49,894 nt of DNA from Planctomycetota bacterium (GTDB lineage Bacteria; Planctomycetota; Phycisphaerae; UBA1845): the NCBI GenBank assembly GCA_024276605.1, contig JAJRWX010000013.1, forward strand, positions 1 through 49,894. The letters run 5' to 3'. Below are positions 1-9,988 of the stretch, in pieces. Each line of letters opens with the position of its first letter. The stretch's first letter is position 1. The notes beneath the pieces are model-generated. The model did not search any database. It was not told where the DNA came from and worked only from the letters and a program-made list of their open reading frames with translations. Made by a program: the position numbers and the translations under genes.

Positions 1-181
1 CTGCTGCGTTGTCATACGAAAACCAATCGGCACGCCATCGGGCAATAGCATCAATCGGGTATGGCGGTTTAGGCCATCGCCAATAGGGATGTCTTTTCCA
101 CTTGCTCACAGTCATCCGCGAAACGCCAAGCGCCCGCGCTAGTGCCGCTTGGGTGGGGCAACACCTACCTGTTTCAACCAT
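1..181 (-). CDS. partial helix-turn-helix protein, small-terminase-subunit-like
   Basis: The gene starts at an ATG at 181 behind a GGAGG ribosome site 8 bases upstream and runs off the left edge after 60 codons. The visible N-terminus contains a helix-turn-helix with the motif QAALARALGVSRMTVSKWKR, followed by a tryptophan-rich stretch and IDAIARWRADW. That pattern is typical of Nu1/terS-type small terminase subunits and of related phage DNA-binding proteins. In phage satellites a terS homologue often redirects packaging of helper phage capsids, so the location at the far side of the primase fits. With only 60 residues visible, a plain DNA-binding regulator is also possible. Confidence 0.55.
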   Translation of the reverse strand, partial: MVETGRCCPTQAALARALGVSRMTVSKWKRHPYWRWPKPPYPIDAIARWRADWFSYDNAA

Positions 182-366
182 AGTCAAGCCTCCCATGTAA
201 ACCTCGAAAATAATTATTTAATTTTCCGTCCGGGCGCGATGCCCCGACCCGCGCGCTCTATTCTCCTAGGAAGTACCTTGAAAAAAACACCGAATATAGC
301 TCCTGTGTGGGGCAGGTATAGTCTATGAACATCGTTTAGAGCCTCTCAGTGAGGGTAGTCATCCAA

Positions 367-405
367 AATAACGCACCAATAGCGTACGTCCACTGGTGCG
401 CTATT
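367..405 (-). terminator. terminator downstream of the TubC_N-like gene
   Basis: Arms of about 12 bases (around 367-378 and 394-405) pair with a single G-T mismatch. Read on the minus strand, the hairpin is followed by TTATTTT. It begins 6 bases after the stop of the gene at 411-743, so it probably ends that transcript. Confidence 0.55.
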
Positions 406-410
406 CCCCT

Positions 411-743
411 TTACGGGGGTTCCTCCTCGCGGTCCTGGGGGCAAGGCACGCCGACCAGCATCCTTACCGTGGCCTCATATCTTGGATCGTAAGCCCCACG
501 GCCATCGGGATAGGGCCTACACACTCGCAGGAATCGTCGAGCCTCACGTAGTCCGTGTGTTCCCGTCTGCTTAGATCCATCAGTCAGTATGGCCAGCAGG
601 GCCACCTTGTTGTGCTTCAACCTACCAGCTAGGTCATCCGTCATGGATGCCCGTGGGCTACACCGCAGCTTATCGCCGTGGGATTCCAGCGTGATCCCCA
701 GACGGACACACTCCATGAGTAGGTCTTCTACGACCGTGGTCAT
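411..743 (-). CDS. small TubC_N docking-domain-like protein of the island
   Basis: 110 residues. The first 52 follow the pattern of the TubC N-terminal docking domain family: an N-terminal helix (EDLLMECVRLGITLE), a short hairpin (SHGDKLRCSP), then a helix (DDLAGRLKHNKVALLAIL). In NRPS/PKS enzymes this fold docks one protein on another, and stand-alone versions occur in phage and integrated-element proteins. The C-terminal half is arginine- and proline-rich and is not recognised. GAGGTG sits 8 bases before the ATG. It lies alone between the structured gap after the primase gene and the terS-like gene. The role is unknown; a protein-protein adaptor is the simplest guess. The domain call was made from pattern only. 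Confidence 0.55.
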   Translation of the reverse strand: MTTVVEDLLMECVRLGITLESHGDKLRCSPRASMTDDLAGRLKHNKVALLAILTDGSKQTGTHGLREARRFLRVCRPYPDGRGAYDPRYEATVRMLVGVPCPQDREEEPP

Positions 744-1101
744 AGGTCCAGCACCTCATTGTCGGTGTTGGTGGTGTTTTCGGGGGCGTCTAGGGTGTAG
801 CCGTAACCTAAACCCTCGCTTTTCTGCGGGTTTAAGGGGGTATCGGTTACGGTTACACCTGTAGCGAGTCTAAAAACATGCGCGTCGTGCGATCATGTTG
901 ACTGCCCACTATCTGATTTTTACTTCTTTCCCTCTTTCACCTTTCACCGGGGGGCCTCTAACGCACACGTAGTAAATACGGTAAAAAATGAATGAGTAAG
1001 GAAGTAGTGGTGAAAAGAGAAAGAAGAGTATATAATATGTTATAATCATTATTATTTCCTATAAAAACCCCTATTTGCCCTCACGCTTCTTGCACCTTTT
1101 T
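744..1101. other. structured, partly AT-rich gap; candidate replication origin of the island
   Basis: No gene is seen in this 358-base gap. It contains an inverted repeat with 15-base arms (794-808 and 845-859, one G-T mismatch). Nested inside it is a second hairpin, TAAACCC (809-815) with GGGTTTA (828-834). From about 1000 to 1075 the sequence becomes strongly AT-rich, with runs such as TATAATATGTTATAATC. A structured region with an AT-rich flank next to a primase-helicase gene is what a self-replicating island's origin often looks like. The hairpin could instead be a terminator for the primase gene, which ends at 1102. Confidence 0.35.
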
Positions 1102-3168
1102 TCACTCACGTAGCCGGTATGCTCTCGATTTTCTTCCCAGCGTCGAATTCACATCCGTGGCAATAGTGCCTTGTTCTTGCAAAGTATTAACAAGAGCCGT
1201 GAAGTCTGCACTTTTTATTTTCATCCTCTTTAGAAGCACACTATGCGAGATTGTTTTGGCGGGTGCAGACCGCAATTTCTCTACGACCTTTAAGCACATC
1301 GCTTGGAATGGTGTGTCTGCAACGTGCGACTGCACCATGAATAGCATTCTTGCTATTTGATATTCGTAAAAATCAATTGCCCAAGTTACTGCCTCCTCGC
1401 CTATCTCCGGATCGTCGTGCCGCTCAGATATGGCGTAGATCAGCGCCAGCTTGCGAACTTGCTCACCGAATCTGCTCAACACCGCAGCCGCCACGTTGTC
1501 GTCGTCCTTGTGGGCCTTAACGATCTTTTTTGTATTGGCGGTCCCAGATTTGACTAGGATCGCGTGAGCGGCTTCCGTGGTAGGCACAATGATAGGCTCA
1601 GGTGCTATATCGCTCAGGTTGCCCTCGGAGATTTGTAGGCCTGCCCACCATCCGACGATATCCATAATATCCTGGGGCGGATCAATTATCCGTGCTCGCT
1701 GGTCTATTCGCTCGCCGAACGATTCCAGGATGATTGACCGGCCAAGAAACCCATTGGTTAACAGGTGCTCAGATAGTGCTCCGTAGTAGTTTTTGGGAAT
1801 AGCTGATCCTAGCAGGCTTAGTGACGGCTGATGCACGGGGCATGGTGGTTCTTTGCCTGCTCGTTTGCGGGTATAAAATATAGAAGCCGACGATGTGTAC
1901 AGCGTCAACAAGGTTGACATAACCGTTTTCCAGCGAGACTCGCGTGAGTTGGCCACGCACTGCAACATCGAATCAATCTCGTCCGTTTGGAAAAGTATGT
2001 TGGGCTGGCACTGCACGGCATCTTGAATACCCTCGCCACTTGCAAATCCGTTGCCTAGGCACAATCCCAGATTAGCGTTTGTCATAATTTTAACATTGAG
2101 TTTTCGGGGCCAGTCCTTGCCCGATCCTGATAACCCTAGTCCGAGCACCATGATGTTTGTGCGATTGTCCTCCGCATCGCGCACTTTTCGACCGCCTAGA
2201 AATGCTTGCAGGGTAAGCGCGCCGCAGAATGCCATGACGGGGTTAGGGCAAGGCGCGGTTTCTAAACAATAGTCCTGCACCATATTTATCAGTCCAGGTA
2301 CGCGGATTAAATGTGCTGGCATAGGTCCGGGGTCAGGAGTCAATTTAGACGGCACCGGCGAAGTTATATCAGTAGCTCGCCACTCGCTTTCGAAGTCGTT
2401 GTAAATGAAATCCTGCACAAGCGGCTCGCAACCTTTGCTGATTATGCTCTTGCCAATACGGTCAACTTCCGCACGGGGAATAGGCGGCCTGCAGTGGTTT
2501 TCATTTTCGCTGTGTAGTGCAACGTATATGGTGTCATCATTCAGCCCTAAGCGGACGAGCTTACCGGCCATTTTTGTTAGCGTACTGTTACGTTGCCCTT
2601 CGGGAATTGTTCTTGTATTGCCGTCGTTGGTGTGCTTGCGTGTTTTTGGCTGGTCTGCCTGCTCAATGTCCTGCATTAACCATGCAGGCGGCGAGGGTAA
2701 TTGATCGGGCGGAACAAGCGGATAAACCGGCGCCCATTGATACGACCTACCATCGACTATGGACGGCCCGACAACGATATATCCACCATTGCCGCGCGTA
2801 TCGACCTTGGTAGCTAACTTGCCCGCTGTGTTCCCGTACCGCGTACCGTTGGTTCCGAACATATAGTGCCTGCCGCCATTCGGCGTCAGTGCCATTGGCG
2901 CGACGCTCAAATCATTCGCTCGCTCATTACCCGGCCATTCGTTGTCATCGCCGTCAACGTCAACAACCAACAACCCATTTGTGCTTAAGCCGATATTGGC
3001 ATCGGGATTGGCTTCCCACATTGCCTCGATGATTTCGGGATCAGTGGTGGCGTCTTTGCATCCATGACTACCTATTAACGGATGCTTAGCCCCCGGCGTG
3101 ATTGCAAAAACTTTGTACCCTAAATCGGCGTATTTTAATGCTGCTTGAAGATTCTGTTCATTTTTCAT
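1102..3168 (-). CDS. bifunctional DNA primase/polymerase with DUF3987 helicase-like domain
   Basis: About 688 residues. The N-terminal 190 or so form a Prim-Pol (archaeo-eukaryotic primase) domain: ALKYADLGYKVFAITPGAKHP is the typical opening, followed by GLSTNGLLVVDVDGDD with metal-binding acidic residues and GGRHYMF. Residues around 195-255 (EGQRNSTLTKMAGKLVRLGL to RIGKSII) match a primase C-terminal helical domain. The remainder matches DUF3987-type ATPases: GLGLSGSGKD is a P-loop and FQTDEIDSML the acidic Walker B-like stretch. Such proteins prime and unwind DNA for replication of phages, plasmids and satellites. The ATG at 3168 is 12 bases from AAGGA; an in-frame GTG at 3177 is only 3 bases from it, so the start is uncertain. 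It is the largest gene of the island. Confidence 0.85.
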   Translation of the reverse strand: MKNEQNLQAALKYADLGYKVFAITPGAKHPLIGSHGCKDATTDPEIIEAMWEANPDANIGLSTNGLLVVDVDGDDNEWPGNERANDLSVAPMALTPNGGRHYMFGTNGTRYGNTAGKLATKVDTRGNGGYIVVGPSIVDGRSYQWAPVYPLVPPDQLPSPPAWLMQDIEQADQPKTRKHTNDGNTRTIPEGQRNSTLTKMAGKLVRLGLNDDTIYVALHSENENHCRPPIPRAEVDRIGKSIISKGCEPLVQDFIYNDFESEWRATDITSPVPSKLTPDPGPMPAHLIRVPGLINMVQDYCLETAPCPNPVMAFCGALTLQAFLGGRKVRDAEDNRTNIMVLGLGLSGSGKDWPRKLNVKIMTNANLGLCLGNGFASGEGIQDAVQCQPNILFQTDEIDSMLQCVANSRESRWKTVMSTLLTLYTSSASIFYTRKRAGKEPPCPVHQPSLSLLGSAIPKNYYGALSEHLLTNGFLGRSIILESFGERIDQRARIIDPPQDIMDIVGWWAGLQISEGNLSDIAPEPIIVPTTEAAHAILVKSGTANTKKIVKAHKDDDNVAAAVLSRFGEQVRKLALIYAISERHDDPEIGEEAVTWAIDFYEYQIARMLFMVQSHVADTPFQAMCLKVVEKLRSAPAKTISHSVLLKRMKIKSADFTALVNTLQEQGTIATDVNSTLGRKSRAYRLRE

Positions 3169-3193
3169 AGAATACACGTGTCCTTATTCTTGT

Positions 3194-3229
3194 AAGACCG
3201 CCGCTAGTTTCCCCGGCTTTGGCGGTCTT
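3194..3229 (+). terminator. strong hairpin with a T-run facing the plus strand
   Basis: Arms AAGACCGCC (3194-3202) and GGCGGTCTT (3221-3229) are perfect and are followed on the plus strand by a run of T. No plus-strand gene lies to its left, so it would stop antisense transcription entering the regulator genes. On the minus strand it forms a hairpin without a T-run in the leader of the primase gene. Confidence 0.5.
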
Positions 3230-3234
3230 TTTTT

Positions 3235-3345
3235 TCACATACTTGCCTCGTGGTGGTCAATGGCGCTGCCCAACGATGCCAGAAGCTTGTCAATGGCATC
3301 ACCGATGCGCACTTCGCGCCCATGCTTGTCCGACTTCTCAGCCAT
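3235..3345 (-). CDS. small hypothetical protein (36 aa), coupled to the DUF1580 gene
   Basis: A 36-codon reading frame whose ATG overlaps the stop codon of the DUF1580 gene as TAATG, the same junction used by another gene pair in this island (5057). The peptide starts MAEKSDKHGREVRIG and continues with a short amphipathic helix (DAIDKLLASLGSAID). It is too short to assign. The stop-start overlap suggests translational coupling and argues that it is a real gene. Confidence 0.5.
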   Translation of the reverse strand: MAEKSDKHGREVRIGDAIDKLLASLGSAIDHHEASM

Positions 3346-3656
3346 TAAATGCCTACAGCTTCCAGGTTTTTCTTCGCGCGTTCGATGGACTTCAATCGCT
3401 GCCGATTGGTCGGTAGTTTCGGTGGGGGGGCAGGTCGGTCGGGTAACTCTACCTCGCCCAGCTCTTTTGAGAATCGCTCGAGCGCCTCCATCGACGTGAC
3501 GAATCGACCACCCAGACGACGGACCTCAAGCTTCACACCACGACAGCCTTTTCGCGCCCATCGCCACAATGTGCTAGGGTGGGGGCGCTTGCCATTTAGT
3601 TTTGGCAGCGCCTTAGCGGCCTCGGAAAACGTTACGATTTGTTCTGATAGCAACAC
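3345..3656 (-). CDS. DUF1580-family regulator/excisionase-like protein
   Basis: The GTG start at 3656 is chosen because GGGAGG lies 8 bases upstream; the longer frame to 3740 would begin with a TTG inside the dyad repeats and lacks a ribosome site. The 103 residues read LLSEQIVTFSEAAKALPKL, then HPSTLWRWARKGCRGVKLE, then GGRFVTSMEALERF. This is the DUF1580 pattern, a planctomycete-enriched family with a winged-helix/MerR-like DNA-binding look similar to AlpA/Xis proteins. The C-terminus is proline- and lysine-rich. In an island next to an integrase it is a good candidate for the excisionase or the switch that controls the primase module. The family is recognised by pattern; the function is inferred. 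Confidence 0.75.
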   Translation of the reverse strand: MLLSEQIVTFSEAAKALPKLNGKRPHPSTLWRWARKGCRGVKLEVRRLGGRFVTSMEALERFSKELGEVELPDRPAPPPKLPTNRQRLKSIERAKKNLEAVGI

Positions 3657-3717
3657 GATAACAACCTCCCGCAAAAGAGTTTTTCGTTCCTTCGCGGATA
3701 GTATTAAGGTGTTGCAC

Positions 3718-3772
3718 TGACCATCGGGAGCGCTGGCCAAAGTATTTTGTTGACCATCGGGAGCGCTGGTCA
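3718..3772. repeat. two 22-bp dyad direct repeats; candidate operator
   Basis: A 22-base unit occurs at 3718-3739 and 3751-3772 with one mismatch. The start-to-start distance is 33 bases, about three helical turns. Each unit is itself an imperfect dyad, TGACCA ... TGGTCA, around AGCGCT. They lie just upstream of the DUF1580 gene's true start and 2 bases beyond the stop of the preceding gene. Binding sites for a repressor, possibly the DUF1580 protein itself, are the likely meaning. Confidence 0.6.
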
Positions 3773-3774
3773 GA

Positions 3775-4521
3775 CTATTTGTGATTTGATTCTAATCGTG
3801 CGCGACGGACCATTCTTGCTTCGATTTTCAATTGGGTTGCTACATCGCTATCAATAACACCAATCATACCTTTTGCGTTGTTGGGATACTTCGATGCCTC
3901 TTTTGCCCATAGCTTACGGATTTCTATATTTCTTTTCTTGATTTCGCCAGGGGTAGGGTTGGATTTTAGCGCACCTTTATATCCACCTTGTTTTTGCTTT
4001 TTTCCAGCCCATGCGTCCCGTTCATGCGAGCGAATGTTTGCACGCTCTATTAGTTGACCTAATACCATCAACCACCCAGGCAGGTGGTCATCAAAATCAC
4101 CATCCTCTATTGTAGCTGTGTACCCATCACATGATACAACTTTATCGCGTTGATATGGTGTCAGTAGGTCATCGATGATTTTAATAACATAACTAGCTGA
4201 TTCTACGTCACAGATAAACGCTGCACGGCGTTCGGGGTCTGGTATATGCGAGCCAGGTGAATTGGAAGTTAAAATTTGTTCACACGCTTCCCGTGCCCTA
4301 TCTAAGAGTTCGTATGGATTATGTTCAACATTCGCACGAAACCTTTTTTCTCGGGTTCGTTCTAATTCTTCACGACCTTCGGGCGTATTGTCCACCGTCA
4401 CAAATTCATAAACGGTAGTTGAATTATATATTCCGGTTTTCGCTGGTAACAGGTTAACAATTTTACGGCCACCATCTTCCATTTTTTCCATGACTTGTGC
4501 TACTGTTTGATTTGTGGCCAT
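3775..4521 (-). CDS. hypothetical protein, unrecognised, AT-rich gene of the island
   Basis: 249 residues from the ATG at 4521, which has GGAAGG about 8 bases upstream; the longer frame to 4575 lacks one. No known domain is recognised. The N-terminus is charged and predicted helical (QVMEKMEDGGRKIV), the middle holds ELLDRAREACEQIL and IKIIDDLLTPYQRD, and the C-terminus is very basic (ERDAWAGKKQKQGGYKG, then KKRNIEIRKLWAKEASKYP), which could bind nucleic acid. It has no signal peptide or membrane segment. The gene looks visibly richer in A and T than the neighbouring genes, hinting at a separate origin within the island. It lies between a strong terminator and the dyad repeats, so it probably has its own promoter. 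Confidence 0.6.
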   Translation of the reverse strand: MATNQTVAQVMEKMEDGGRKIVNLLPAKTGIYNSTTVYEFVTVDNTPEGREELERTREKRFRANVEHNPYELLDRAREACEQILTSNSPGSHIPDPERRAAFICDVESASYVIKIIDDLLTPYQRDKVVSCDGYTATIEDGDFDDHLPGWLMVLGQLIERANIRSHERDAWAGKKQKQGGYKGALKSNPTPGEIKKRNIEIRKLWAKEASKYPNNAKGMIGVIDSDVATQLKIEARMVRRARLESNHK

Positions 4522-4581
4522 GTTCTGCACCTTCCAATCTCTCATCCAATAGCGACAAGATGATGCCACCATCAAATAAAA

Positions 4582-4637
4582 AACCCCGCGTGTGCTGCTA
4601 ACACCAACCAGCTAAGGAATGGTACACACGCGGGGTT
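4582..4637. terminator. bidirectional intrinsic terminator
   Basis: Perfect 13-base arms AACCCCGCGTGTG (4582-4594) and its complement (4625-4637). Minus-strand reading continues into six T; plus-strand reading continues into TATATTTTTT. It ends the two-gene unit that starts at 5317 and separates it from the gene at 3775-4521. Confidence 0.85.
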
Positions 4638-4721
4638 ATATTTTTTCGTACACGCTGATCGTGTTAGCTGCTCGTATTATGCCACCTCATTGTGGTCGTG
4701 CAAGCTCAACGTCATCTATGC

Positions 4722-5057
4722 CTATTCATCACATACACCTACCGCTTGGGCGATAACCTCCCTCGCATGTTGTGCAACCGTCCGGACCATATCACGCCAT
4801 ACCGGGCCGGTGATGTTCGGGCCGTTGTCCCGGTCAAGCCTGTAGATAAGATTGGCAACTTCTAATAGTCCCGGCGATGCAGCTATAAGCCGGGCGTTAG
4901 CATCGCGTTCACAGGGCGTAGTCCCATTTCCCGGTTCGCGGTCCATATGGGCAATCGGCACGCCGGTATCTTTGCCTTTGGGATACGCGGTCGGACAATC
5001 GGCGTAAACGCACCCTAAATGATAAACCCACGGGCCGGTTGTGTGTGCCTCTGGCAT
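4722..5057 (-). CDS. small phage-type hypothetical protein
   Basis: 111 residues. The central motif CERDANARLIAASPGLLE is common in small hypothetical proteins of phages and prophages, where it follows a variable cysteine-containing N-terminus (GPWVYHLGCVYADCP here). No catalytic role is known for the family. Its ATG overlaps the TAA of the gene at 5057-5317 as TAATG, so the two are translationally coupled and end at the terminator at 4582-4637. The family resemblance is confident at the motif level; the function is unknown. Confidence 0.7.
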   Translation of the reverse strand: MPEAHTTGPWVYHLGCVYADCPTAYPKGKDTGVPIAHMDREPGNGTTPCERDANARLIAASPGLLEVANLIYRLDRDNGPNITGPVWRDMVRTVAQHAREVIAQAVGVCDE

Positions 5058-5317
5058 TAAATGCCCCCTTTCGTGTTGGTTGTGAATGCTTTACCCACGC
5101 AACATCGGCTTAGTGCCCACGTGTCGGCCATCGTTAACCGTGTTTCGCCCATCAAATAGGCATCAGCCAATGCTTTTTCCAGCTGTTGTGCTCTGCTTGG
5201 ATACTGCCGTAGGTTGCTCACGATGATAGCCAGGTGGGGGCGATGTTCAGTGATTATATCCAGCACGTGGCCGGGGATACTTACGCCGCGTCTACCTTTT
5301 ACATAGTTGGTTGTCAT
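5057..5317 (-). CDS. small hypothetical protein of the island
   Basis: 86 residues starting MTTNYVKGRRG at the ATG at 5317, with AGGA upstream (slightly long spacing); the longer frame to 5365 runs into the integrase terminator hairpin and is not preferred. It is predicted to be mostly helical (VLDIITEHRPHLAIIVSNL, QQLEKALADAYLM) with one cysteine pair near the end (SRCCVG). No family is recognised. It is the first gene of a two-gene unit coupled to the gene at 4722-5057. It is transcribed away from the integrase gene, whose 3' end is 86 bases upstream. Confidence 0.6.
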   Translation of the reverse strand: MTTNYVKGRRGVSIPGHVLDIITEHRPHLAIIVSNLRQYPSRAQQLEKALADAYLMGETRLTMADTWALSRCCVGKAFTTNTKGGI

Positions 5318-5350
5318 GGTCTTTTTTCCTGTGTAAGTGGTATTTAGAAG

Positions 5351-5385
5351 GCGCCTCAAGTACAAATACCCTAGGCTTGAGGCGC
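5351..5385 (-). terminator. hairpin downstream of the integrase
   Basis: Arms GCGCCTCAAG (5351-5360) and CTTGAGGCGC (5376-5385) are perfect. It lies 18 bases beyond the integrase stop. The T-run on the minus strand is weak (TTCTAAAT), so termination may be partial. Confidence 0.5.
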
Positions 5386-5403
5386 GATTATCTCGTTTCG
5401 TCG

Positions 5404-6630
5404 TTAGCCTGTCTTGAGCGCTACTTTCATAGCCAATTGTTGGTCTGTTTCAGCATAGATTTCCGTCGTGTTAGCTTGCGCGTGTCCCAACGTAACCTGT
5501 GTTGCTTCCAATCCGAATTCCTTACGCACTTGCGTACCACGTGCGTGACGTAATTGATTCGGACTCCAACGATGTTCCCGGTTCCACTGCTTCAGCTTCT
5601 CACCCTTCATACCCTTGGGGGCAGGAAACGCCCGTAAGCAAGCGTAGGCAACAGCCTTGCCATAAGATTGCGTTTTATACCGCTCACCCGGTTTCCATTG
5701 TGGACGACGCTTACAATTGCTTCCGGGTACGTTGCCGCACGATAGGGGAGTCTTGCGGGTGGCGTGCATCAATTCTCGACGCTCACGCTCGGCTTGTTCC
5801 GGTGTGAACATGTAGCCCTTGAGATTCCGCAGATAGGGACGGATAGCCTCTTGGGCCTTCGGGCCGATACATATTTCCCGTGATTGTCCTCGATAGGTGT
5901 TTTTGTGATGCTCCGGCACGTACACCCAGACTTCGCCGGACATATCCAGGTCAGCCACCCGCATTCGGCACACCTCGCCCGGTCGCATCCCGGTCAACCG
6001 TTGCACTGTGACCAATGCGCGGATCGTTGGCGTTAGGAATGGCAGCGTTGCATCAACAACGTCATCCTCGACGGGCAGTACACGTTTAGGCTCAGGGGCA
6101 TCCGTCCGGCCATACCGCAAGCTCTCGACCGTTTCCAGCCGGTGAAAGACGGATGCAGGGATTAATTCCTCGGACGCCGCCCACTTGAATACACGCTTGA
6201 GTCGGAACACTTGGCTATTGACGTATGGTCTGCACCAGCCGGTATCGACCATCCGTTGCCGGACGGCTTTCAGGGCAATCGGTCCAAAGTCTTGGGCCGG
6301 TGTCTCAGAATAGAGCGCCTTTAACGGTTTGAATGCTTGCTTGTAGCAGGCAAGCTCCGGCGTCGTGTCACTGTTTGGGTTGGCGTAATAGCCTTCGGCG
6401 AATTTCCAGAACGCATCGATAAGCTCAACGATAGTGATGGAATCGGGGGGCGCATTCGTGCGACCGCCGCCAGCTAGCCACTCAGCCACACACCGCCTGT
6501 ACGCCTCATGCGATGCCTTCGAGTCGTATGGTCCAAGATGAACCCGAACACCATCAAAAACGACGAACGCACGGTCACTACCATTCTTCTCTTTTTGCCT
6601 ACGATATTGGGGGATTTTGTGTGTCGCCAT
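5404..6630 (-). CDS. int: tyrosine recombinase / island integrase
   Basis: 408 residues from the ATG at 6630 (MATHKIPQYRRQKEK), preceded by AAAGG; the longer frame to 6777 would overlap the tRNA and is rejected. The opening is the usual planctomycete integrase start with a short beta DNA-binding domain (FVVFDGVRVHLGPYDSKASH). A core-binding SAM-like helical domain follows, roughly residues 70-190. The catalytic domain shows the arginine box TGMRPGEV, box II LRHARGT, LGH, and the nucleophile tyrosine in TTEIYAETD, so all key residues are present. A cysteine-containing insert (SCGNVPGSNCKRRPQW) sits in the catalytic domain, as in many relatives from this phylum. It catalyses integration and excision at the adjacent tRNA-Arg gene, whose 3' end is 121 bases from its start codon. 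Confidence 0.93.
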   Translation of the reverse strand: MATHKIPQYRRQKEKNGSDRAFVVFDGVRVHLGPYDSKASHEAYRRCVAEWLAGGGRTNAPPDSITIVELIDAFWKFAEGYYANPNSDTTPELACYKQAFKPLKALYSETPAQDFGPIALKAVRQRMVDTGWCRPYVNSQVFRLKRVFKWAASEELIPASVFHRLETVESLRYGRTDAPEPKRVLPVEDDVVDATLPFLTPTIRALVTVQRLTGMRPGEVCRMRVADLDMSGEVWVYVPEHHKNTYRGQSREICIGPKAQEAIRPYLRNLKGYMFTPEQAERERRELMHATRKTPLSCGNVPGSNCKRRPQWKPGERYKTQSYGKAVAYACLRAFPAPKGMKGEKLKQWNREHRWSPNQLRHARGTQVRKEFGLEATQVTLGHAQANTTEIYAETDQQLAMKVALKTG

Positions 6631-6655
6631 AACGGAACAGCCTTTCAAAATAGGC

Positions 6656-6733
6656 AAGGTACCAGTGGTACCTTTTCCACCTTGATTACAGCCGCTCCGC
6701 CGCGTTGGCGGGTATCCATAAGTCGTTATGGAT
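6656..6733. promoter_or_regulatory. two perfect inverted repeats between integrase start and tRNA
   Basis: AAGGTACC-agt-GGTACCTT (6656-6674) and ATCCATAA-gtcg-TTATGGAT (6714-6733) are perfect 8-base dyads with short loops. They lie in the 120 bases between the integrase ATG and the tRNA 3' end, where arm-type integrase sites, excisionase sites and the int promoter are expected. The first dyad is close enough to the start codon to act as an operator. Confidence 0.5.
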
Positions 6734-6750
6734 TCAGCGTTTATGTCAAC

Positions 6751-6790
6751 TACACCGCGCGGGACTCGAACCTGCAACCTTCGGTTCCGT
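6751..6790 (-). other. presumed attachment site (3' half of tRNA-Arg)
   Basis: The island begins at the 3' end of the tRNA, so the crossover core should lie in the 3' half of the gene (anticodon stem to acceptor end). The second copy of the core would be beyond the left window edge, so its exact length cannot be read. The 3' half carries two unusual pairs (G1-U72 and A51-C63), as might follow from a 3' end supplied by the element. Confidence 0.45.
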
Positions 6791-6824
6791 AAACCGATGC
6801 TCTATCCAATTGAGCTAGCGGTGC
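6751..6824 (-). tRNA. tRNA-Arg (anticodon ACG)
   Basis: A complete cloverleaf can be drawn by hand: acceptor GCACCGC with GCGGTGT, D arm GCTC/GAGC, anticodon stem TCGGT/ACCGA with loop TTACGGA (anticodon ACG), variable loop AGGTT, T arm GCAGG with loop TTCGAGT, and discriminator A. CCA is not encoded. The A of the ACG anticodon would be expected to be deaminated to inosine by TadA. Two irregular pairs (G1-U72 and A51-C63) both involve the 3' half. The gene borders the island integrase. Confidence 0.93.
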
Positions 6825-9853: not shown

Positions 9854-9881
9854 AGTATACCTGCATGAAAAACTCTGACAA
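9854..9881 (-). promoter_or_regulatory. sigma-70-like promoter of the rpsP-trmD-rplS unit
   Basis: On the minus strand TTGTCA (9876-9881), a 16-base spacer and TATACT (9854-9859), each hexamer one base from consensus. It lies about 80 bases upstream of rpsP, a sensible leader length for a ribosomal protein operon. Confidence 0.7.
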
Positions 9882-9944
9882 GTGCTTATGAATCGACAGG
9901 ATGATATAGTGATGAAAAAAGGGGCGACTCGGTTAAGCGAGACC

Positions 9945-9988
9945 CAAAAAAAGAAAGCACCGCCCGCCCTAAGGCGAAACGGTGCTTT
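9945..9988 (-). terminator. intrinsic terminator after nrdJ / small RNA
   Basis: Arms AAAGCACCG (9954-9962) and CGGTGCTTT (9980-9988) form a GC-rich hairpin, followed on the minus strand by CTTTTTTTGGG. It insulates rpsP from transcription coming from nrdJ or from the candidate small RNA. Confidence 0.85.

Follow-up and report, generated by a model that had tools for sequence, protein, structure and literature searches.

Probable phage satellites with candidate cos packaging signals

In Escherichia coli islands of the EcCICFT073 type, which belong to the Gram-negative phage-inducible chromosomal islands (PICIs), the cos site is followed by rpp; these islands keep the cosN of the phage but have a different cosB (PMC6739421, PMC9026076, PMC6092414). 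The Rpp protein pairs with the TerS of the helper, blocks the packaging of the helper and redirects TerL to the island (PMC6739421, PMC9026076, PMC6092414). In lambda itself, the cuts in cosN are staggered by 12 nt (PMC9026076). Another group of satellites, the phage-inducible chromosomal minimalist islands (PICMIs), are found next to fis in Vibrionaceae and encode AlpA; neither a cos nor a terS can be identified in them, and they are apparently packaged by a headful mechanism (PMC10803314). Among 5.39 million open papers, no paper naming both phage satellites and planctomycetes was found.

The element described here was found in a planctomycete of the class Phycisphaerae, whose 4.5-Mb draft genome (G000) is made of 110 contigs. 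The window, i.e. the whole stretch of DNA that was analysed (49,894 bp), is contig C81. The element probably is a complete integrative phage satellite of the cos type, about 7.1 kb in size, that is packaged by a helper from a borrowed cos. The original prediction of a satellite-like island with its own primase is supported, as a second att is present, no virion or conjugation gene is recognised, sister islands exist and a block of the element is found upstream of terS in relatives.

Boundaries of the island

The features that delimit the island are as follows (positions are those of the window; other loci are given as contig or locus followed by positions).

6751..6824, minus strand: tRNA-Arg(ACG) gene (ARAGORN), the site of integration; the island provides its 3' part, and the gene is restored on joining the flanks
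6697..6792, unstranded: att repeat at the integrase end; exact 96-bp copy at G000:C2:359-454
1..181, minus strand: mini-TerS, N-terminal 60 of 68 aa; the remainder lies in contig C2 and ends near C2:169

The repeat extends from the anticodon loop of the tRNA-Arg gene to its 3' end and over 54 further bp. Positions 3-146 of the window overlap with the opposite strand of C2:1-144 (142 of 144 bases identical), and the island continues into contig C2 over about 305 bp past window base 1, up to the second att, beyond which the genes of C2 look chromosomal. The left attachment core, which had been predicted to lie outside the window, is thus the exact copy found in C2, and neither capsid, portal or tail genes nor conjugation genes are recognised up to it. 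The HTH reading frame of the mini-TerS crosses the C81/C2 junction and stops in C2. On the basis of this overlap, of the frame that crosses the junction and of the second att copy, the C81 island is taken to be complete and closed, with a size of about 7.1 kb; the junction is deduced from the overlap of the sequences and not from reads. When the two outer flanks are joined in silico, they give one intact tRNA-Arg(ACG) gene. In two relatives of the same genus (G001 and G002), a TatD gene lies beside tRNA-Arg, but the DNA that matches the C2 side is found elsewhere than next to it; the empty site is therefore shown only by the joining of the flanks.

The far att of the island has as its neighbour a gene for a 376-aa lipoprotein-like protein consisting mostly of Asp-rich repeats (L006:771-1901, in G000:C2). 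Palindromic repeats of ~100-140 bp were observed both at the ends and in the interior of other contigs (L117:1-104 and 9864-9967; L118:1-141 and 4070-4211); such dispersed repeats may be the cause of the assembly breaks in these contigs.

Gene content of the island

Going inwards from the integrase-end att, the following features are found (other islands of the same genome are named after their contigs C3, C57 and C68).

5404..6630, minus strand: tyrosine integrase, 408 aa from its ATG (PF00589, 5e-14; PHROG 1 integrase, 6e-25)
5057..5317, minus strand: small ORF, about 86 aa from its first ATG or 102 aa with an upstream TTG start at 5365
4722..5057, minus strand: gene encoding 111 aa, member of the phage family PHROG 1273 (2e-8), function unassigned
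4570..4640, unstranded: GC-rich, terminator-like hairpin; an inverted repeat, of which 69 bp recur in the C68 island with 85% conservation
3775..4521, minus strand: 249-aa gene, no family assignment
3718..3780, unstranded: two 30-bp direct repeats, operator-like, with the core TGACCATCGGGAGCGCTGGYCA and dyad ends, at the 5' end of the DUF1580 gene
3345..3740, minus strand: DUF1580 protein, putative regulator or excisionase (PF07618, 3e-14), start uncertain
1102..3177, minus strand: replication protein with Prim-Pol (2e-32), PriCT_1 and DUF3987 helicase-like domains
935..1105, unstranded: conserved AT-rich stretch of non-coding DNA next to the primase gene, candidate replication origin
411..743, minus strand: TubC_N-like protein, 110 aa (PF18563, 5e-8)

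All the features that had been predicted from the letters of the DNA are present; those recovered by these matches are an integrase at a tRNA-Arg gene, two adjacent small genes, a DUF1580 gene behind dyad repeats and a replication protein of the Prim-Pol/DUF3987 type. The integrase and the DUF1580 protein are 72% and 85% identical to those of the C68 island, which is integrated in tRNA-Asn, and the DUF1580 protein weakly resembles the excisionase/regulator family PHROG 66 (E 0.08). No AlpA or Stl regulator is found in the island, AlpA giving no match in Pfam, PHROGs or NCBIfam. The small ORF at 5057..5317 has no significant match in Pfam, PHROGs, NCBIfam or PADLOC. The same is true of the 249-aa gene, which has no relative among viral contigs and for which the single-sequence structure model is unusable (pLDDT 43); its proposed role as cargo gains no support from these four libraries.

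Between the att copies, no virion gene (capsid, portal, tail) is recognised when the eight main ORFs are compared with Pfam and PHROGs, the 249-aa gene being without assignment. Likewise, no relaxase or conjugation gene is recognised with Pfam, PHROGs and NCBIfam, nor is any capsid-remodelling gene, and the island proteins that were tested give no defence match with PADLOC. No broken gene is seen in the element.

The primase is 76% identical to that of the C3 island. It belongs to a family that is common in the class (match in 66 of 200 relatives), and its C-terminal half shares 47–51% identity with proteins of two viral contigs, both of which carry a terminase and one a portal. The predicted AT-rich gap is confirmed (39% GC at 1001-1250), and the region 935-1105 shows 74% identity over 174 bp with the C3 island. 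Since this region is kept in C3 and undetected in C57, whose primase differs, it is a candidate origin that is separate from the non-coding block described below.

Sister islands and remnants in the same genome

Three other islands were found in the same genome.

C3 island: tRNA-Ala, 25-bp att, about 6.0 kb; primase 76% identical to that of C81
C57 island: tRNA-Gly, 46-bp att, about 7.3 kb; different primase set
C68 island: tRNA-Asn, cut by the contig start; C57-like primase

As the C68 island combines a C81-like integrase and DUF1580 protein with a C57-like primase, their sequences indicate that modules are swapped among islands. Neither C3 nor C57 encodes a mini-TerS.

Traces of further integration events are scattered in the genome. 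An integrase fragment that is 49% identical to the integrase of the window lies just outside the C57 island (L009:9729-9857), as if a second island had formerly been present at the same tRNA-Gly. In contig C60, a tRNA-Pro gene is followed by the start of an integrase gene with an in-frame stop, the remnant of a further island (L118:838-1327). DNA similar to the att flank of the C81 island also occurs at a tRNA-Pro gene. DNA similar to the att flank of the window (6636-6784) but with no integrase detected is found at a tRNA-Lys gene (L117:3443-3522) and at a tRNA-Met gene (L116:10460-10606); these could be natural targets or scars left by earlier integrations.

A non-coding block shared with terS loci

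The feature that relates the C81 island to packaging is a short block that also occurs ahead of the terS gene of two relatives.

206..298, minus strand: candidate cos packaging site, ~90 bp, with the core GCGCGCGGGTCGGGGCATCGCGC and GCGCG/CGCGC ends

In C81, C3 and C57, this block is located about 0.2–0.4 kb inside the att that is distal to the integrase. It is the only DNA that blastn finds in common between C81 and C57 (73 bp, window 216-288), and the only DNA common to C3 and C57 is a 197-bp region that includes it. Between C81 and C3, the block is 90% identical, the primase as well as parts near the primase and near att being also shared. In G001, the block is found upstream of a short ORF, a gene encoding a 250-aa TerS and a gene encoding a GpA TerL (GpA ATPase domain, 8e-61; nuclease domain, 9e-50), and 6.7 copies of an 18-bp repeat directly follow it; this array has the appearance expected of TerS binding sites.

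A profile made from the four copies (C81, C3, C57 and G001) was searched in 249 related genomes. Beyond its inputs, it matches only G011 (E 1e-4) and, weakly, G013 (E 8e-4), where the match precedes a head-protease-like gene. In G011, which belongs to another genus, the match lies 46 bp upstream of a gene encoding a full-length 178-aa TerS and near a capsid gene (PHROG 4523, 1e-116). As no G011 sequence entered the profile, this match is an independent test.

We read the block as a candidate cosN together with its surroundings. It could also be a late promoter or operator of phage origin that responds to the helper. The block does lie on the same strand as the following gene in all five cases (C81, C3, C57, G001 and G011), this gene being terS in G001 and G011, as a promoter might. 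However, a cosN would be expected to have a GC-rich core with complementary ends, and this is what is seen here, the ends flanking a centre of 13 nt; C3 and C57 conserve 125 further non-coding bp downstream of the core, where the DNA of C81 differs and encodes the mini-TerS; and the repeat array of G001 occupies the place where TerS would bind. These features make a promoter or operator unlikely. When folded as a single strand, the block does no better than shuffled sequences (z -0.5).

Less probable still is a cryptic integrative plasmid-like element that would move without any phage and for which the block would be a shared replication origin. In favour of it, the island encodes a replication protein, and virion genes are not recognised in it. 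Against it, the block is common to islands with unrelated primases (C57 versus C81 and C3) and to terS loci, whereas only the two islands with the same primase have the adjacent candidate origin in common.

A TerS-like protein with the DNA-binding domain only

The candidate cos of C81 is followed by the mini-TerS gene. Over 56 aa, the protein is 48% identical to the N-terminus of the G001 TerS (E 1e-18), and over 45 aa it is 36% identical to the G011 TerS (E 1e-7). The start codon lies about 50–60 bp after the core in both C81 and G011. The protein ends at about the end of the DNA-binding domain, and the DNA past its stop codon does not resemble terS. The original prediction of a terS-like gene is therefore right as to its presence, as a gene of 68 codons spanning the contig junction, but what is encoded is a DNA-binding domain only, devoid of the TerL-binding part.

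The structural comparisons are in line with this assignment. Foldseek finds nothing below E 0.9 with the mini-TerS model, whose quality is middling. With VIA, two entries whose titles refer to viral DNA packaging motors (7lw0, Z 5.3; 7lwr, Z 5.0) are in the top three and the TerS-Rpp entry 6hn7 has a Z of 4.7. As MerR-type HTH regulators score about equally, the fold is compatible with a packaging protein without being a proof of it.

Phage relatives and the search for a helper

No helper phage was found in the host genome or in phage and viral collections. The host encodes no GpA TerL, the TerL of G001 has no relative in viral contigs, and the capsid family PHROG 4523 is absent from G000, G001 and G002, this being the only capsid family searched, so that an unrelated resident prophage is possible. 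The pattern of the cos core has no match in viral contigs, and a similarity search of phages gave none. Among genome contigs, the pattern is found in the G001 contig and at two other places (L139 and L140), which lie inside ordinary coding DNA and were rejected as cos sites, being taken as chance matches. The helper may be a non-resident phage, as with PICMIs, or may be missing from the assembly.

Two TerS-TerL pairs were noticed in the relatives of the same genus (L027:1539-4520 in G001:C85 and L119:10028-12638 in G002:C76). No capsid or portal gene was noticed downstream of them within the stretch read. These loci would be either defective prophages or islands with their own terminase.

In the complete genome G057, a capsid-bearing element much larger than the C81 island begins with tRNA-Arg(CCT), an integrase, DUF1580 and a Prim-Pol primase (L101:1899-11135, L141:10033-12138) and includes a capsid-protease gene (PHROG 4523). 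The gene order that had been predicted to be a signature of PICIs is thus also the one with which a capsid-bearing element begins. Gene order alone therefore proves nothing, and a common descent of the island with phages is likely; the satellites may be related to the G057 element or descend from it.

This likeness could also mean that the C81 element is a prophage in decay, from which the virion genes have disappeared while the integrase, the regulator, the primase and the cos/terS edge are left. The mini-TerS could then be a truncated terS, and integrase remnants are indeed present in the genome (C60 and C57). However, the att repeats are intact, no gene appears broken, and the sister islands C3 and C57 are of similar size but differ in the genes that accompany the block, which makes repeated independent decay less likely. 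We regard a decaying prophage as improbable and retain a helper-packaged satellite as the preferred reading.

A model for the lifecycle

Taken as a whole, the lifecycle of the satellite could be as follows. The integrase would move the island in and out of the tRNA-Arg gene by recombination between the att sites; what is observed are the repeated att and a tRNA gene that is restored on joining the flanks, and from these we infer excision. Induction would be controlled by the DUF1580 protein and the operator-like repeats. The Prim-Pol/DUF3987 protein would then copy the excised circle, perhaps from the adjacent AT-rich region, leading to concatemers. The TerL of the helper would cut them at the shared cosN-like core, and the 68-aa mini-TerS would pair with the TerS of the helper and bring its TerL to the cos of C81, as Rpp does. 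The C3 and C57 islands would instead be recognised directly by the TerS of the helper, which fits with the lack of a mini-TerS and with the 125 additional bp that they conserve downstream of the core. As no capsid-remodelling gene is recognised, packaging would be expected to occur in full-size heads.

A broader proposal, which we put forward tentatively and hold to be somewhat less probable than its opposite, is that one genome harbours a family of tRNA-targeting satellites with two ways of hijacking one and the same terminase of a phage. The TerS-binding DNA of the helper would be copied by C3 and C57, while in C81 a bare TerS DNA-binding domain of 68 aa would redirect the terminase to a private cos; no smaller packaging redirector would then be known to us.

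If the satellite reading is true, a further phylum is added to those with satellites of the cos type, and a single genome has three islands with the block in common. The shared block offers a direct handle for finding the helper phages of bacteria that are hard to culture. The islands with and without a mini-TerS form a natural contrast that makes the minimal needs of a packaging redirector testable.

Comparison with known systems

In its gene order, the C81 island resembles the G057 element (L101/L141), which has the same succession of tRNA-Arg, related integrase, DUF1580 and Prim-Pol primase but differs from the C81 island by its capsid-protease gene (PHROG 4523) and its much larger size.

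Like PICMIs (PMC10803314), the C81 island is very small, encodes an integrase and a primase and has no recognised capsid-remodelling genes, so that concatemers in normal heads would be expected; unlike them, it has a tRNA site, DUF1580 and a cos-like block. Its integration in tRNA-Arg, and not next to fis, and the lack of an AlpA match led us to reject its identification as a PICMI.

The end of the island with the candidate cos recalls the cos-terS region of lambda and N15 (PMC9026076), with a cosN-like dyad, a TerS-binding region and terS, followed in G001 by a TerL of the GpA type. In contrast to lambda-like phages, C81 encodes only the DNA-binding domain of TerS and no TerL.

A further comparison is with the EcCICFT073-type PICIs (PMC6092414, PMC6739421, PMC9026076). 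In both cases, the element encodes an integrase and its own replication gene but no virion genes, and no capsid-remodelling gene is recognised; the cosN, in C81 a candidate one, is common with phages whereas the DNA downstream is different, and a TerS-like DNA-binding gene lies just after cos. C81 differs by its tRNA-Arg site, its Prim-Pol/DUF3987 primase, its size of about 7 kb, its phylum and the fact that it encodes DUF1580 and no recognised regulator of the PICI kind. Its mini-TerS has 68 aa and comprises the DNA-binding domain only, compared with 135–154 aa for Rpp. Judged from its sequence, the C81 island would seem to function in the manner of an EcCICFT073-type PICI, but it is not filed as a PICI, a name that depends on phage induction and interference. 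The layout is similar in that the candidate cosN of C81 is followed by the gene of a putative TerS-like redirector, with a protein half the size of Rpp.
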